Position numbers and translations under genes: made by a program. A DNA stretch of 64,000 nt from positions 2,790,001 through 2,854,000 of the forward strand of contig NZ_CP024955.1 of NCBI RefSeq assembly GCF_002804065.1, given 5' to 3'. The notes beneath the pieces were generated by a model that did no database searches, was not told where the DNA came from, and saw only the letters and a program-made list of their open reading frames with translations. This document shows, one piece after another, positions 53,289 through 60,248 of this stretch (positions are counted from its first letter, which is position 1; each line of letters begins with the position of its first letter). This stretch comes from Kyrpidia spormannii. GTDB lineage: Bacteria > Bacillota > Bacilli > Kyrpidiales > Kyrpidiaceae.

Positions 53289-53867
53289 ATGAAACTATCC
53301 GATTGGGCTAGGCAACAAGGAATCTCCTACATGACCGCTTGGCGTTGGTGGAAGGACGGCAAGCTGCCTGTACCCGCCCGTCAGACCGAATCCGGCACGA
53401 TCCTGGTGGATGTCCCCCCGAGCCGTAAAGGCGGCCGGACGGTTGTGTATGCCCGGGTGTCCTCTCACGACCAGAGGAGTGACTTGGACAGGCAAGTGTC
53501 TCGAATCACCCAGTGGGCAACCGAGCGAGATCTCGTCGTGGACGAGGTGGTAACGGAGGTCGGATCGGGGATAAACGGGAAACGTCCAAAGCTCCGGCGT
53601 ATTTTGGCGGATGCGCGGGTGACGACCATCATTGTGGAACACCGGGACCGACTGGCGAGGTTTGGCGTGGAGTACCTGGAATCTGCACTGGCTGCTCAGG
53701 GCCGTCACATCGTGGCGGTGGATTCCGGGGAGACCCGCGCCGATCTGGTCCGGGACATGATCGAGGTCTTGACATCGTTCTGCGCCCGATTGTACGGCCG
53801 ACTGGGAGCACGGAATCGGGCTTTGCGGGCTGTGACCGCCGCAAAAAAGGATGGGAAGGAATCATGA
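53289..53867 (+). CDS. tnpA: IS607-family serine recombinase (TnpA)
   Basis: 192-residue transposase: N-terminal MerR-like helix-turn-helix (LSDWARQQGISYMTAWRWWK) and a small serine-recombinase domain with nucleophile S58 in VVYARVSSHDQ and the RxxR motif in EHRDRLARFG. Works through a circular intermediate with a 2-bp core. ATG 53289 with TATACA 20 nt upstream. Stop overlaps the tnpB start (ATGA). Intact. Confidence 0.93.
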   Translation: MKLSDWARQQGISYMTAWRWWKDGKLPVPARQTESGTILVDVPPSRKGGRTVVYARVSSHDQRSDLDRQVSRITQWATERDLVVDEVVTEVGSGINGKRPKLRRILADARVTTIIVEHRDRLARFGVEYLESALAAQGRHIVAVDSGETRADLVRDMIEVLTSFCARLYGRLGARNRALRAVTAAKKDGKES

Positions 53868-55129
53868 AGACGCTTCAGGCGTACCGCTTTGCACTCGATC
53901 CTTCGCCGCATCAGGAGAGGATGTTGGCTTCCCACAGCGGAGCCCGGCGGTTTGCCTTTAACTGGGGGCTGGCATTGGTAAAAGAGCGATTGGAGGCCAG
54001 AGGACGAGGCGAAGACGTCGAAGTGCCGTGGACCCTTGCCGCCCTTCGGAGGGAGTGGAACCGGCAGAAGGAACAAGTCGCCCCGTGGTGGCGGGAGAAT
54101 TCCAAGGAAGCGTACTCGGCGGGGCTGGACGGCCTGGCCCGGGGGCTGAAGGCGTTTTTCGACAGCCGGTCTGGGAAGCGGAAGGGGCGTCGGGTGGGGT
54201 TTCCGAAGTTCCGGAAGAAGGGCCGGGGTCGGGAATCGGTGCGGTTCACGACGGGAGCGATCCGGGTGGACGACAAAAGCCACGTCGTTTTGCCCCGGAT
54301 CGGGCGGGTGAGAACGCACGAGATGACCACGGCGCTCTTGGAGCGGGTGCAAAGTGACCGGGCGCGGATTCTGTCGGCGACTGTCTCCCGGGAAGGCGGG
54401 CGGTGGTTTGTGAGTTTCACCTGCGAAGTGGAGCGGGACGCCGGGCGGCCGAAGCGCCCCCGGGACGTGGTGGGAGTGGACGCCGGGCTGAAACACCTGG
54501 CGGTCCTGTCCACGGGGGAGAAGGTGCCGAACCCGCGACCCTTGCGCAAGGCATTGCGAAAGATCGCGCGGTTGAACCGGGAGTTGGCCCGGCGAAAACG
54601 CAGAAGCCGACACTGGGAGGATACCCGTCGGCGGCTGAACCGGGCCCACGCGAGGGTGGCGAGAATTCGCTTGGACGCCATGCACAAGCTGACTCACCGG
54701 CTGGCGACCACGTTTGGCACCGTCGTGGTGGAAGACCTGAATGTGGCTGGGATGGGGCGGAACCGGCGATTGTCCCGGGCGATCTACGACGCGGGGCTGG
54801 CGGAGTTGAGACGGCAGTTGCGGTATAAATGCGAGTGGTACGGGTCCCGTCTCGTCCAGGCCCCCAGGATGTATCCCAGTTCCAAGACCTGCTCCAGGTG
54901 CGGGGCGATCAAGGAAGTCCTTCCGCTTTGGGAGCGGGTGTATCGGTGTGAAGAGTGCGGGACGGTGATGGACCGGGACGAGAATGCGGCGCGGAATCTG
55001 GCGGCTCTTGCGGCCGCCGTCGCCGGGAGTGGACCGGAGACGAAAAACGCCCGTCGAGAGGATGTAAGACCCGACTTGACCGGGCGGTCTTCGATGAAAC
55101 GGGAAGCCGGCACCGGGCAACCGGGTTAG
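53864..55129 (+). CDS. tnpB: TnpB RNA-guided nuclease of IS607-type element
   Basis: 421 residues. RuvC acids: D in VVGVDAGLKHLAVLSTG, E in VVVEDLNVAGMG, D in MDRDENAARNL; zinc ribbon SKTCSRCGAIKE and YRCEECG. N-terminal KTLQAYRFALDPSPHQERML is the usual TnpB front. ATG 53864 overlaps tnpA by 4 nt. The last 40 residues past the RuvC III motif are basic and low complexity, where an omega RNA is usually encoded. Appears active. Confidence 0.93.
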   Translation: MKTLQAYRFALDPSPHQERMLASHSGARRFAFNWGLALVKERLEARGRGEDVEVPWTLAALRREWNRQKEQVAPWWRENSKEAYSAGLDGLARGLKAFFDSRSGKRKGRRVGFPKFRKKGRGRESVRFTTGAIRVDDKSHVVLPRIGRVRTHEMTTALLERVQSDRARILSATVSREGGRWFVSFTCEVERDAGRPKRPRDVVGVDAGLKHLAVLSTGEKVPNPRPLRKALRKIARLNRELARRKRRSRHWEDTRRRLNRAHARVARIRLDAMHKLTHRLATTFGTVVVEDLNVAGMGRNRRLSRAIYDAGLAELRRQLRYKCEWYGSRLVQAPRMYPSSKTCSRCGAIKEVLPLWERVYRCEECGTVMDRDENAARNLAALAAAVAGSGPETKNARREDVRPDLTGRSSMKREAGTGQPG

Positions 55130-55212
55130 ACCGGCGCCCCTGCCCCGCAAGGGACGGGTACTTGAAACAGATGTATATGTTTCAAGTAACGGTACCGCTG
55201 AACAACATACGT
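55080..55212 (+). ncRNA. Predicted omega/reRNA at the right end of the IS607-type element
   Basis: Covers the tnpB 3' end, the GC-rich GCCCCTGCCCCGCAAGGGAC hairpin and the palindrome AAACAGATGTATATGTTT up to the right boundary at about 55211. By family analogy the guide would be the acyl-CoA synthetase DNA immediately after 55212. Limits inferred. Confidence 0.35.
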
Positions 55213-57161: not shown

Positions 57162-59006
57162 TCAGGCGAATTGTCCACGAGCAGTGTTCGGATCTTCATT
57201 TCGTTCCTCCCACAGCACGGTGTTGTATTCGACAGCCAGGTTCCTGTCTCGGGTATGGCCCACTTGCAACACAGTATTGGGATGCCGTAAACGAATCCGA
57301 ATCCTCCCGGACGGATTGTCGACTTTTGCACTGCTCTCTATACCGAACGGAGTACCCATTTCTTCAATATCGATTAAATTTTGGGCTACGAGAAATCCGC
57401 CCCGCATGCTGCCGCGTATCACGATTGAATTCCCGGCTTCCAAAGAGCTGGCGTAAGTACCAGGCCCGGTAACCACAATGCTCCCGGATGCCCTCACCGA
57501 ACTGGAGGTGATACTGGCCGCCTTCACCGTGGCGGTTTCAGTGTGTTTCATCGATTCGATGTGGAAGATGTAATCAACCAACATGTGGTGTAAAGCCATC
57601 ACATGCTGTTCAGTTATGTTGGTCCTGCCAATTCCGAACCACTTTGAGCGGATCTCACGCACGATCTGGCGATACCGATCATCTGCGTTCAGCACTCCAT
57701 CAGTCTCGTTGCAGAAGGATTGCAGAAAACGTTCCAGATCCGGATGGCGGGTGGTAAGCAGTGCGTCCGCCAACAACCCCAGGTGTGTACCCTGGTCAAT
57801 CCGCTGCCTGGCGTGACCCAACAATTCCTGGAACTCCGCTTGGAACTTCTCATATTCCACTATACCTTTTTTCAGCATCTCATAAATCCTCGTGTACACA
57901 AGTTTGGATGCTCCCGCCACGATCTGCGAACCCACAATGGCATCCTGTACCGACACACCACGTTCTCCCAGCACCGTCGAGTGGAACACACCACCATTTA
58001 CCCGCACTGTCCCCATGGCTTTGATATAGCTACCATCGAGTACCGACCCCAACACCACAACGTCCCCGTCAAATTCAACCTTCCCGTCTTTGCTGGAAAG
58101 ATCGTGGTCAATAACCAACTCCGGGATTACATCGATACGATTTTTCGTAAAGAGCAGTCGGCCACTGCGAACTGCCACGAGGCGGTCATTTACTTCTATC
58201 ACACCTTGACCCAGCGTTGGCAGCGAGCGGTGTACTGAACATGGAATCTCCCTGCCGAACACATCCCGCCCCGGCGTACCCGGTATCTCTGGTTCCAATA
58301 CAGCGACCGTTGTGCCAAGACCAATGGATGTAATGGGCATCTGACGCTGAAGAGGATCGTGGACCTTCGGAAGTTCAACCCGTCTGTAACGAGCCGCTCG
58401 GCCTGGAACGGGGGGAGTTCCCCGCAACACGATACACTCGGTCGTGTCCTTGGCCTGAGCAATGGTCTCAACTCCTGTCGGGTCAAGTACCCCGACGTAC
58501 CCCGCAGACTCCAACCGCGCCACAATTTCGCCTGTGCCCAATGGATCGGGACGCAAATCTATTGTTTCAATTTCCAGCACCGCACGATGCGCACCGTGCA
58601 TGTCTCTGAGACGATGCTCTTCACCCGGTTTTACGTCGATTCTCCCAATGACTTCCATGTTGTCCTTCGTCACTTTTGTAGAAAATTGGATTGATGGCAA
58701 ACTCTTGGCCAGCGATACCTCGATATGTTGATTTTCATGAACAACGACCTCTCCGACACATTTCTGTCCGTCAATCACGACCGTCAACCGAGGGTCGTCG
58801 GGGATAACAATTATCGCAAATGAACCTTCATCGTCAGGGTCAGAGACAATAAGCTGATTGTTCACCACAGTGACAGTTCCATGCCGCACGCTTCGTATCT
58901 CTTCATTGGATTCAAACGACGGGAATGATTGTGTCTCAGGTTCTGATGATCTTGACAGGCGAGGTTTGAAAAGCCAATGCCTTACTTTCTCCAGCAAGGA
59001 CCGCAT
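57162..59006 (-). CDS. FapA/DUF342 family protein (polymer-forming, flagellar/polarity-associated)
   Basis: 614 residues. The FapA (DUF342) core lies at about 150-460: MPITSIGLGTTVAVLEPEIP, GTPGRDVFGREIP, then a right-handed beta-helix with regular turns (KVEFDGDVVVLGSVLDGSYI, KAMGTVRVNGGVFHSTVLGE). A helical insert and a second beta-helix (SIVVTGPGTYASSLEAGNSI) follow. Such proteins form oligomeric scaffolds; FapA of Vibrio controls flagellar assembly, but the role in this organism is unknown. ATG 59006 follows GAGAGGTGAGAGA. It lies 61 nt after the EAL gene on the same strand, hence under the same riboswitch. Confidence 0.85.
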   Translation of the reverse strand: MRSLLEKVRHWLFKPRLSRSSEPETQSFPSFESNEEIRSVRHGTVTVVNNQLIVSDPDDEGSFAIIVIPDDPRLTVVIDGQKCVGEVVVHENQHIEVSLAKSLPSIQFSTKVTKDNMEVIGRIDVKPGEEHRLRDMHGAHRAVLEIETIDLRPDPLGTGEIVARLESAGYVGVLDPTGVETIAQAKDTTECIVLRGTPPVPGRAARYRRVELPKVHDPLQRQMPITSIGLGTTVAVLEPEIPGTPGRDVFGREIPCSVHRSLPTLGQGVIEVNDRLVAVRSGRLLFTKNRIDVIPELVIDHDLSSKDGKVEFDGDVVVLGSVLDGSYIKAMGTVRVNGGVFHSTVLGERGVSVQDAIVGSQIVAGASKLVYTRIYEMLKKGIVEYEKFQAEFQELLGHARQRIDQGTHLGLLADALLTTRHPDLERFLQSFCNETDGVLNADDRYRQIVREIRSKWFGIGRTNITEQHVMALHHMLVDYIFHIESMKHTETATVKAASITSSSVRASGSIVVTGPGTYASSLEAGNSIVIRGSMRGGFLVAQNLIDIEEMGTPFGIESSAKVDNPSGRIRIRLRHPNTVLQVGHTRDRNLAVEYNTVLWEERNEDPNTARGQFA

Positions 59007-59067
59007 TCTCTCACCTCTCATCCTTGTCCGTCGCCGCCAACGACACGGAGGGTGATTCTGTGACCAC

Positions 59068-60036
59068 CTACAAATCCTTGCGCAATAATTGGTGGTACAA
59101 ATGAATCAGAGTATCGAGTTCTTGGCTTTTCTGTACCACCGCCTTATCGGTCAATGAGCCGTCCCTATTCCGAGCAAGATCCGCCAACTCAGTCCTCTTT
59201 CTCTCAATTTCACTGAGCAGATCCGACAATTCACTGATCGACATCGGGCGTGACCAATAGTATCCCTGACTCACATTGACACCAGCTTCCCGAATGGCAT
59301 TCAGATCTTCGTAGTTTTCGACCCCCTCAGCAATGACTGAATTTCCGGACTCCATAAATCTCACTAAACGGGATAGAAATCGCTGTTTTGAAGAGGATAT
59401 CGAAATCCCTTGAATCACTGTACGGTCTACTTTGACGAAATCGGGTTCGAATTCAAAGAGTCCCGCAAGACTGGTGCTCCCAGCACAAACATCGTCAAGG
59501 GCTATCCGAACGCCGAGTGATCGTATGGATTTGATCATTTTCGACAACAAAGTAAGGTCATACGATATGTACTCGACGATTTCGATTACAAGTTGGTCTG
59601 GTTCACACAGTCCCTCTCGAAGCAAAACTTCGAGCCGTTCAACAAAGGACTCCTGAACAAAGCTGCTCGGCATCACATTCACGTACAAGGGAATGGAACT
59701 GATTTCAGGGGGCAACAGTCGGAGGCGATTTACACTGATAGTGAGAGCTAATAAATCGGCTTCCATCGAACGCTTGCTTTCGTAAGCAGCACGAAACCAA
59801 ACTTCCGGCGGAATAAAATGGCCGCCGTACTGAGGACGGCTTAGTGCCTCATGAGCAAAAACGACGCCCTCGGCATGATTGACGATGGGCTGATAAACCA
59901 CTTCAAGCGTTTCGTGTTTAAGGATCTCATCTACACTCCGGCAGAGGGAATTGTATTGATTTGGGTTTTTAGGGGATTTATACCCCCCCCCCCCCCCCCC
60001 CCCCCCCGGTGAGGGTTTATTTGGAAATTGATCCAA
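59068..60036 (-). CDS. EAL-domain cyclic-di-GMP phosphodiesterase with poly-Gly tract
   Basis: Hydrolyses c-di-GMP; 322 residues in the cytoplasm. All EAL catalytic positions are visible: E63-A-L in HEALSRP, N in YVNVMPSSF, E in LVIEIVEYIS, DD in IALDDVCAGSTSLAGL, K in DFVKVDR, E in VIAEGVEN. C-terminal 70 residues are coiled-coil-like. TTG 60036 is the start because GAAGGAGGG lies 8 nt upstream (60045-60053). Residues 11-18 are eight Gly encoded by a 25-G run, so slippage would shift the frame after ten codons. Preceded by a c-di-GMP-I riboswitch, followed by fapA. Confidence 0.92.
   Translation of the reverse strand: MDQFPNKPSPGGGGGGGGYKSPKNPNQYNSLCRSVDEILKHETLEVVYQPIVNHAEGVVFAHEALSRPQYGGHFIPPEVWFRAAYESKRSMEADLLALTISVNRLRLLPPEISSIPLYVNVMPSSFVQESFVERLEVLLREGLCEPDQLVIEIVEYISYDLTLLSKMIKSIRSLGVRIALDDVCAGSTSLAGLFEFEPDFVKVDRTVIQGISISSSKQRFLSRLVRFMESGNSVIAEGVENYEDLNAIREAGVNVSQGYYWSRPMSISELSDLLSEIERKRTELADLARNRDGSLTDKAVVQKSQELDTLIHLYHQLLRKDL
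59983..60007. repeat. 25-bp homopolymer (poly-C/poly-G) inside the EAL gene
   Basis: 25 consecutive C on the plus strand, thus 25 G in the coding strand, at codons 10-18. With 25 G the frame runs into the EAL domain; 24 or 26 would not. Typical of a phase-variable contingency tract. Assembly length error is possible. Confidence 0.9.
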
Positions 60037-60064
60037 TTCCTTCACCCTCCTTCGTAATGATGTC

Positions 60065-60091
60065 AAAAAGCGCCCTTTTCCTGCAGGGCGC
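60065..60091 (-). terminator. Intrinsic terminator of the riboswitch expression platform
   Basis: Coding strand GCGCCCT (60091-60085), loop, AGGGCGC (60076-60070) followed by TTTTT (60069-60065). It lies between the c-di-GMP aptamer and the EAL ribosome site, so ligand binding could choose between termination and read-through. Confidence 0.8.
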
Positions 60092-60099
60092 CTCATCCT

Positions 60100-60195
60100 T
60101 TGCGAGTGGCAACCCGGCGATCATAGGCACATGTGCCCTTAGACCCGTGGCTTTGCGTCCTAGCGTTTCCGCTAGTTTGCCCTGAGACAACTCTA
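60100..60195 (-). promoter_or_regulatory. c-di-GMP-I (GEMM) riboswitch aptamer
   Basis: The minus strand reads CAGGGCAAACTAGCGGAAAC, GCTAGGACGCAAAGCCACGG, then TCTAAGG and a P3 helix GGGCACATGTGCC, and CGCCGGGTTGCC closing P1. This matches GEMM-I: AGGGCAAAC, GNRA-type GAAA loop, GGACGCAAAGCC and the 3' GGGTTGCC. It lies upstream of a terminator and the EAL phosphodiesterase, giving c-di-GMP feedback on its own breakdown. Direction of control (on or off) cannot be told. Confidence 0.88.
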
Positions 60196-60219
60196 TCGAC
60201 CTATTCACCTTGTCCCAAC

Positions 60220-60248
60220 ATAATCCTACATTATTCGACATCTGTCAA
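60220..60248 (-). promoter_or_regulatory. Promoter for the riboswitch-EAL-fapA transcript
   Basis: Minus strand TTGACA (60248-60243), 17-nt spacer, GATTAT (60225-60220), then the aptamer begins about 25 nt downstream. A good vegetative sigma-factor match. Confidence 0.75.

Follow-up and report, generated by a model that had tools for sequence, protein, structure and literature searches.

A candidate three-layer cell-fate switch at a predicted EAL-Spo0E fusion gene of Kyrpidia spormannii

Organization of the locus and its fusion protein

The window analysed here, a 64,000-nucleotide stretch of the Kyrpidia spormannii genome, carries on its minus strand a promoter, a c-di-GMP-I (GEMM-I) riboswitch aptamer, an intrinsic terminator, a gene with an EAL phosphodiesterase domain and a FapA-like gene, all of them present in the order given by the initial annotation (Table 1). 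That annotation omitted a 25-nt poly-G tract, a C-terminal Spo0E-like domain and Spo0A (0A) boxes within the promoter. The aptamer, identified correctly from the outset, scores 84.1 bits against the 35-bit cut-off of its Rfam family (E 4e-15), matches the model over its full length with all model pairs formed, and occurs as a single copy in the 3,352,175-bp genome. The ATG at 60096, previously listed as the start of the EAL gene, was rejected because it lies within the terminator stem; the likely start codon is the TTG at 60036, behind a GGAGG Shine-Dalgarno sequence.

Table 1. Features of the EAL-Spo0E locus in window coordinates
Feature	Coordinates	Strand	Evidence
Sigma-70/A-type promoter, TTGACA-17-GATTAT	60220..60248	minus	10/12 matches
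Tandem Spo0A (0A) boxes, TGTCGAA-TAA-TGTAGGA, between -35 and -10	60224..60240	minus	motif match
c-di-GMP-I (GEMM-I) riboswitch aptamer	60105..60191	minus	Rfam RF01051
Intrinsic terminator, GAGGCGCCCT-GCAGGAAA-AGGGCGCTTT-TTG	60064..60094	minus	5' arm complementary to aptamer strands
Shine-Dalgarno, GGAGG	60046..60050	minus	sequence
EAL-Spo0E coding sequence from the likely TTG; 25 G keep it in frame (ON)	59068..60036	minus	PF00563, PF09388
25-nt poly-G tract, candidate slipped-strand phase-variation tract	59983..60007	minus	sequence
EAL phosphodiesterase domain	59245..59931	minus	PF00563, E 4e-48
Spo0E-like domain, C-terminal	59095..59220	minus	PF09388, E 9e-10, above cut-off
FapA-like gene, probably second in the transcript, with an alternative ATG at 59006	57162..59021	minus	PF03961, E 8e-13; PF20250, E 3e-10

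The EAL part of the protein has all the residues expected of a catalytic domain (E64, N121, E153, D182, D183, K203, E238 and Q258), and these (E of EAL, N, E, DD, K, E and Q) are invariant or at least 90% conserved in 30 orthologs. At one variable column the window protein departs from the Gly of most orthologs, with DDVCAG. A Foldseek comparison with solved structures matches this part to the EAL domain of BifA (E 6e-17).

The C-terminal tail scores above the Pfam cut-off for PF09388 in five orthologs, namely the window protein and four more. It contains the SxxxD signature as SQELD at 59113-59127, the Asp of which is invariant across 12 divergent aligned tails. The top matches of a profile made from the tails are the solved Spo0E-like proteins 2c0s (E 5e-8) and 2bzb (E 1e-5), and an AlphaFold2 model (mean pLDDT 84) shows the EAL domain followed by a two-helix hairpin (residues 268-291 and 299-319) with the motif in helix 2. 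The product is a fusion of 322 residues and not a small stand-alone protein, so the term Spo0E-like domain is used here in preference to classical Spo0E. The genome encodes one Spo0A and, apart from the fusion, a single further Spo0E-like domain, which stands alone in a frame of about 84 residues. The protein is thus predicted to be a c-di-GMP phosphodiesterase fused to a predicted Spo0A~P phosphatase. No EAL-Spo0E fusion was found in the literature searched; the one broad survey of Spo0E that was found there considered proteins of 40-100 amino acids (PMC11115286), and would therefore have excluded fusions to EAL domains.

Both Pfam matches of the FapA-like gene are above cut-off, in agreement with its initial description. 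The reported distance of 61 nt from the EAL stop codon applies if fapA begins at its conserved inner ATG (59006); its first ATG (59021) lies 46 nt from that stop. A fapA gene is common downstream of the EAL gene, but this arrangement is not constant, and in several species chemotaxis genes (encoding a chemoreceptor or CheW/CheA-like proteins) take its place. The fapA gene of K. tusciae (L011 2439-3892, reverse-complement coordinates) is apparently split by a frameshift. Further along the window, a Transposase-2 RNA (RF03015) lies at 55096-55162, at the 3' end of an ORF (53513-55129) whose translation resembles a TnpB-type transposon protein.

Strong relatives of the EAL-Spo0E gene were found only in Kyrpidia, in Alicyclobacillaceae and in a few metagenome-assembled genomes of Bacillota. 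Not all of them possess every feature: the orthologs of A. herbarius and A. mengziensis have no tract, those of A. montanus and two A. contaminans copies have no Spo0E tail, and A. cellulosilyticus has no riboswitch while keeping eight G and a 0A box. As separate parts are missing from different members, the tract, the tail and the riboswitch evolve separately. A. contaminans apparently possesses three riboswitch-EAL paralogs in one species (L077, L079 and L153), two with the tract and one without. In Alicyclobacillus sp. ALC3 and a related metagenome-assembled genome (L083 and L084), the tract is down to five or six G and the EAL gene is frameshifted, which suggests that these genes decayed after tract loss.

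The poly-G tract and the reading frame

The poly-G tract lies between the TTG start and the EAL domain. Its 25 nt are far beyond chance in a window where the second-longest G or C run is 6 nt, and the whole genome contains only three G runs of at least 12 nt, with lengths of 21, 25 and 22 nt. A tract recurs at the same place across Kyrpidia and many Alicyclobacillaceae, with lengths from 8 to 29; for instance, there are 29 G in K. tusciae, 16 in A. macrosporangiidus, 18 in A. montanus and 16 in A. contaminans. In A. mali the tract divides two contigs: the first comprises riboswitch, terminator and start codon and stops within the tract, and the second opens within it and runs on into EAL; further draft contigs also begin inside the tract. 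A search for at least 14 G followed by a different base gave 45 matches in 41 genomes of the family, of which 15 are less than 75 nt upstream of this EAL gene, against an expectation of about 0.0005 by rough arithmetic. Two more of the 45, in genomes G090 and G098, precede other EAL genes. In the near-closed genomes G062, G063, G076 and G088, the tract of the EAL gene is the sole one of 14 or more G genome-wide. An origin of the poly-G as an assembly artefact was rejected, as the tract is found in finished genomes, among them that of K. tusciae, sequenced by Sanger and 454 methods (PMC3236038), and many independent assemblies agree on where it lies.

Translation from the Shine-Dalgarno-preceded start on the 5' side of the tract would run on into the EAL frame (ON) in the window (25 G), A. 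macrosporangiidus (16 G), an A. contaminans copy (16 G), G088 and G097 (14 G each), A. montanus (18 G, with a weak Shine-Dalgarno sequence) and some further loci. In K. tusciae (29 G), G082 (19 G), G073 (12 G), G063 (20 G), G062 (21 G) and G076 (18 G) it would miss that frame (OFF), although all of them have an intact EAL domain downstream. These lengths are compared between species, with one genome per species, and single ON or OFF calls are tentative because assembled homopolymer lengths may err by at least one base; the overall pattern is independent of any single call. A downstream start that might rescue the OFF alleles was considered and rejected: in most species no Shine-Dalgarno-preceded, in-frame start was found between tract and EAL domain, G076 being the one exception. 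The locus thus combines a long, pure repeat capable of altering the frame with lengths that differ between ON and OFF among species, and the EAL-Spo0E gene is probably phase-variable by slipped-strand changes in the tract. The nearly identical loci of G073 and G063, with 12 and 20 G, fit this reading.

Two other explanations of the tract were weighed. It could be retained as a glycine linker for the sake of the protein: poly-G reads as glycine in every frame, the window tract continues the frame of a start codon, and the residues that follow it (GYKxPxNP) are conserved. Yet the tracts are pure G, although GGG accounts for only 33% of the glycine codons sampled in the window; in about half of the species the tract is out of frame with the Shine-Dalgarno-preceded start while the EAL domain is still open; and G073 and G063, with flanks 98-99% identical, differ in having 12 and 20 G. 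A linker function as the reason for the tract is therefore highly improbable. Long G runs are also prone to polymerase slippage and can form quadruplexes, and the hosts are thermophilic, so the tract might act at the RNA level, through transcriptional slippage or a G-quadruplex, to give a mixed or temperature-dependent output and not a genetic ON/OFF choice. This would leave the large length changes between close relatives unexplained, and we regard it as quite unlikely in place of phase variation, with which it could coexist.

Other long tracts were seen in these genomes. A 21-nt poly-G tract at genome positions 1229026-1229046 (L030) lies in a small ORF (MGTTARVTLRGT...) just upstream of a gene for a PAS-HD protein, and its K. 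tusciae homolog has 18 G (L067); this is possibly another phase-variable locus near c-di-GMP-type genes. A 22-nt tract at 2939320-2939341 (L031) is located upstream of a methyl-accepting chemotaxis protein, and the homologous place in K. tusciae has 14 G (L057). In genomes G003 (L054) and G002 (L060), a different, shorter EAL gene without a riboswitch has a poly-G of 12 and 23, respectively, very soon after the start codon, and neither tract keeps the gene in frame. The divergent EAL genes of G090 (L189) and G098 (L194) have tracts of 17 and 21 G, and the former also has a c-di-GMP-I riboswitch. In A. fructus (L074/L148), the contig carries 49 C in place of the G run of its relatives, which is probably a mistake of assembly in the tract.

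Riboswitch, terminator and Spo0A boxes

Aptamer, terminator and EAL gene are found in the same order in about 17 related loci, and this conserved order supports the view that the riboswitch controls the gene of the predicted phosphodiesterase in response to c-di-GMP. The aptamer is coupled to the predicted terminator as its expression platform. In 17 of 22 leaders, the 3' strand of the aptamer, GGG(U/C)UGCC, which contains the ligand-contacting C, is able to pair over 8 bp with the terminator's 5' arm; among leaders with unambiguous pairing, those whose aptamer has C at the variable position have G opposite it in the terminator arm. Such an antiterminator is the minimum-energy fold just before completion of the terminator in about half of the 17 leaders folded. 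In the window leader, its energy is -36.5 kcal/mol versus -40.4 kcal/mol for the best fold, and the complementarity by itself is not significant (p 0.10). The best fold of the window, K. tusciae and G082 leaders pairs CAGGGC at the 5' side of the aptamer with the same terminator arm, which likewise excludes the ligand. Under either arrangement ligand binding would free the terminator, making the element an OFF switch. Elsewhere, the Cd1 riboswitch of C. difficile is an OFF switch in which the aptamer's 3' strand is complementary to the 5' arm of the terminator (PMC9262584), and class I riboswitches of that species are uniformly off in reporter assays (PMC6200980). An OFF direction is likely for the riboswitch upstream of EAL-Spo0E; because the signal from the window leader is weak, this grading depends on the family of leaders as a whole.

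The promoter, at the position first reported, is preserved in the K. tusciae and G082 leaders. Its spacer contains a perfect 0A box at 60240-60234, identical to the established Spo0A core motif TGTCGAA (PMC3485338), and a second box, TGTAGGA, lies 10 bp on and overlaps the -10 element. Tandem boxes, defined by 10-bp spacing and no more than three mismatches in 14 positions, precede the riboswitch in 12 of the 18 non-redundant leaders, compared with 0.26 in dinucleotide shuffles and one on the opposite strand; exact boxes are present in seven of the 18 leaders, against 0.38 expected. The control genes from the K. spormannii genome that carry the tandem pattern were not recognizable as a classical Spo0A regulon, and the excess of the pattern in that genome comes partly from a repeated element; the enrichment is for these reasons judged from the ortholog leaders alone. 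The placement of the boxes over the promoter suggests repression, and Spo0A~P is probably a repressor of the EAL-Spo0E gene.

The proposed switch and its relation to known systems

It is fairly likely that the locus is a three-layer cell-fate switch in which Spo0A boxes, a riboswitch and a poly-G tract control the EAL-Spo0E fusion. The sequence itself shows the domain architecture, the riboswitch, the tract, how its length and frame differ from species to species, and that the boxes are conserved; from these we infer the enzyme activities, the OFF direction of the riboswitch, repression by Spo0A, switching within a clone and the phenotype. Transcription would begin at a promoter overlapped by tandem Spo0A boxes, where Spo0A~P probably represses it. 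The transcript would then meet the riboswitch, the ligand-bound fold of which frees the terminator, so that c-di-GMP probably halts transcription. Finally, slippage would change the length of the poly-G tract and so switch translation between an in-frame (ON) and an out-of-frame (OFF) state. An out-of-frame tract would stop translation early and may lower expression of the downstream gene by polarity.

In ON cells, the protein would clear c-di-GMP as well as Spo0A~P and thereby lift both restraints on its own gene, and with an OFF riboswitch this would create a double self-reinforcing loop, to which the tract would add a heritable, reversible OFF state. Low c-di-GMP and low Spo0A~P would both favour motile vegetative growth, and the ON state may thus be a self-reinforcing motile or vegetative state; in B. 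subtilis, motility is promoted by Spo0E (PMC11115286). Genetically OFF cells would be free to raise c-di-GMP and Spo0A~P, and to settle or sporulate. Whether the whole amounts to a bistable, bet-hedged choice between motility and sporulation or biofilm in environmental spore formers, with one protein erasing both repressing signals under the toggle of a hypermutable poly-G tract, we rate as evenly balanced.

In the initial annotation, the second messenger appeared to control the expression of the enzyme that destroys it. The conserved order of aptamer, terminator and EAL gene sustains control by the riboswitch, but simple feedback is an incomplete account, as the anatomy of the terminator favours an OFF switch. 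The homeostatic alternative would need an ON riboswitch through which high c-di-GMP induces its own phosphodiesterase, with the G tract being incidental. A phosphodiesterase under negative feedback would be a plausible arrangement, and in truncation folds of the window leader in which the aptamer has formed, 5'-UGUCUCA is able to pair with GGAUGAG at the base of the terminator. Against it, the aptamer 3' strand of most relatives is complementary to the terminator 5' arm, as in the Cd1 OFF switch (PMC9262584), and class I switches gave uniformly off responses in C. difficile reporters (PMC6200980); we find homeostasis by an ON switch unlikely. Another alternative concerns the tail, which may be a Spo0E-like hairpin that no longer acts on Spo0A and instead serves in dimerization or partner binding. 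The fusion departs from the stand-alone form of 40-100 amino acids, some orthologs have lost the tail, and C. difficile Spo0E also binds RstA (PMC11115286), but the signature Asp is invariant in the aligned tails and spo0A is present in the genome, so such a change of role seems unlikely. A three-layer switch with an OFF riboswitch and a tail directed at Spo0A~P is the reading that we prefer.

If the fusion acts as predicted, it would be a direct physical link between the c-di-GMP and Spo0A~P signals; in C. difficile, c-di-GMP acts on the start of sporulation through an 'unidentified regulatory pathway' (PMC8653836). A 2025 review describes phase variation of c-di-GMP phosphodiesterases by inversion and epigenetic switching only (PMC11868660), and no homopolymer-controlled c-di-GMP phosphodiesterase, nor any precedent on c-di-GMP in Kyrpidia, was found in the literature searched; simple-sequence-repeat slippage would, if true, join the known modes. 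Poly-G contingency loci would likewise extend to free-living, thermoacidophilic Bacillota, and with a transcription-factor operator, a riboswitch and a slippery tract one after another on a single gene, the fate switch would be unusually compact.

Each part of the locus belongs to a known kind, whereas the fusion and the control of a phosphodiesterase by repeat slippage are without precedent in the literature searched. The closest precedent is pdcB of C. difficile, which with pdcC is a phase-variable phosphodiesterase (PMC9286219; reviewed in PMC11868660). As predicted for Kyrpidia, stochastic ON/OFF switching of these EAL phosphodiesterases influences motility and sporulation in a spore former, but it is caused by DNA inversion acting on a promoter, whereas in the Kyrpidia locus the coding sequence itself contains a homopolymer tract, to which a c-di-GMP riboswitch, 0A boxes and the fusion to a Spo0E-like domain are added. 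The riboswitch resembles Cd1 of the C. difficile flagellar genes (PMC9262584, PMC6200980) in its class I aptamer and in the complementarity of the terminator 5' arm to the 3' strand, and Cd1 also works together with a phase-variable flg switch; unlike Cd1, the Kyrpidia riboswitch has a predicted c-di-GMP-degrading enzyme as its target, closing a feedback loop. The tail shares with the Spo0E family (solved relatives 2c0s and 2bzb) the SxxxD signature, the two-helix hairpin and a Spo0A encoded in the same genome, but the known members are small and stand-alone, and the Kyrpidia domain is fused to EAL. The downstream gene has the FapA_N and beta-solenoid domains of FapA (DUF342) proteins, both above cut-off, but is not a fixed partner, being swapped for chemotaxis genes in the operons of several species. 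The tract itself, a long run of pure G near the start of a coding sequence with ON and OFF frames across genomes, is like the poly-G contingency loci of Campylobacter and Neisseria; those mostly affect surface structures of host-associated Gram-negatives, whereas the Kyrpidia tract lies in the gene of a predicted second-messenger enzyme in a free-living member of the Bacillota.
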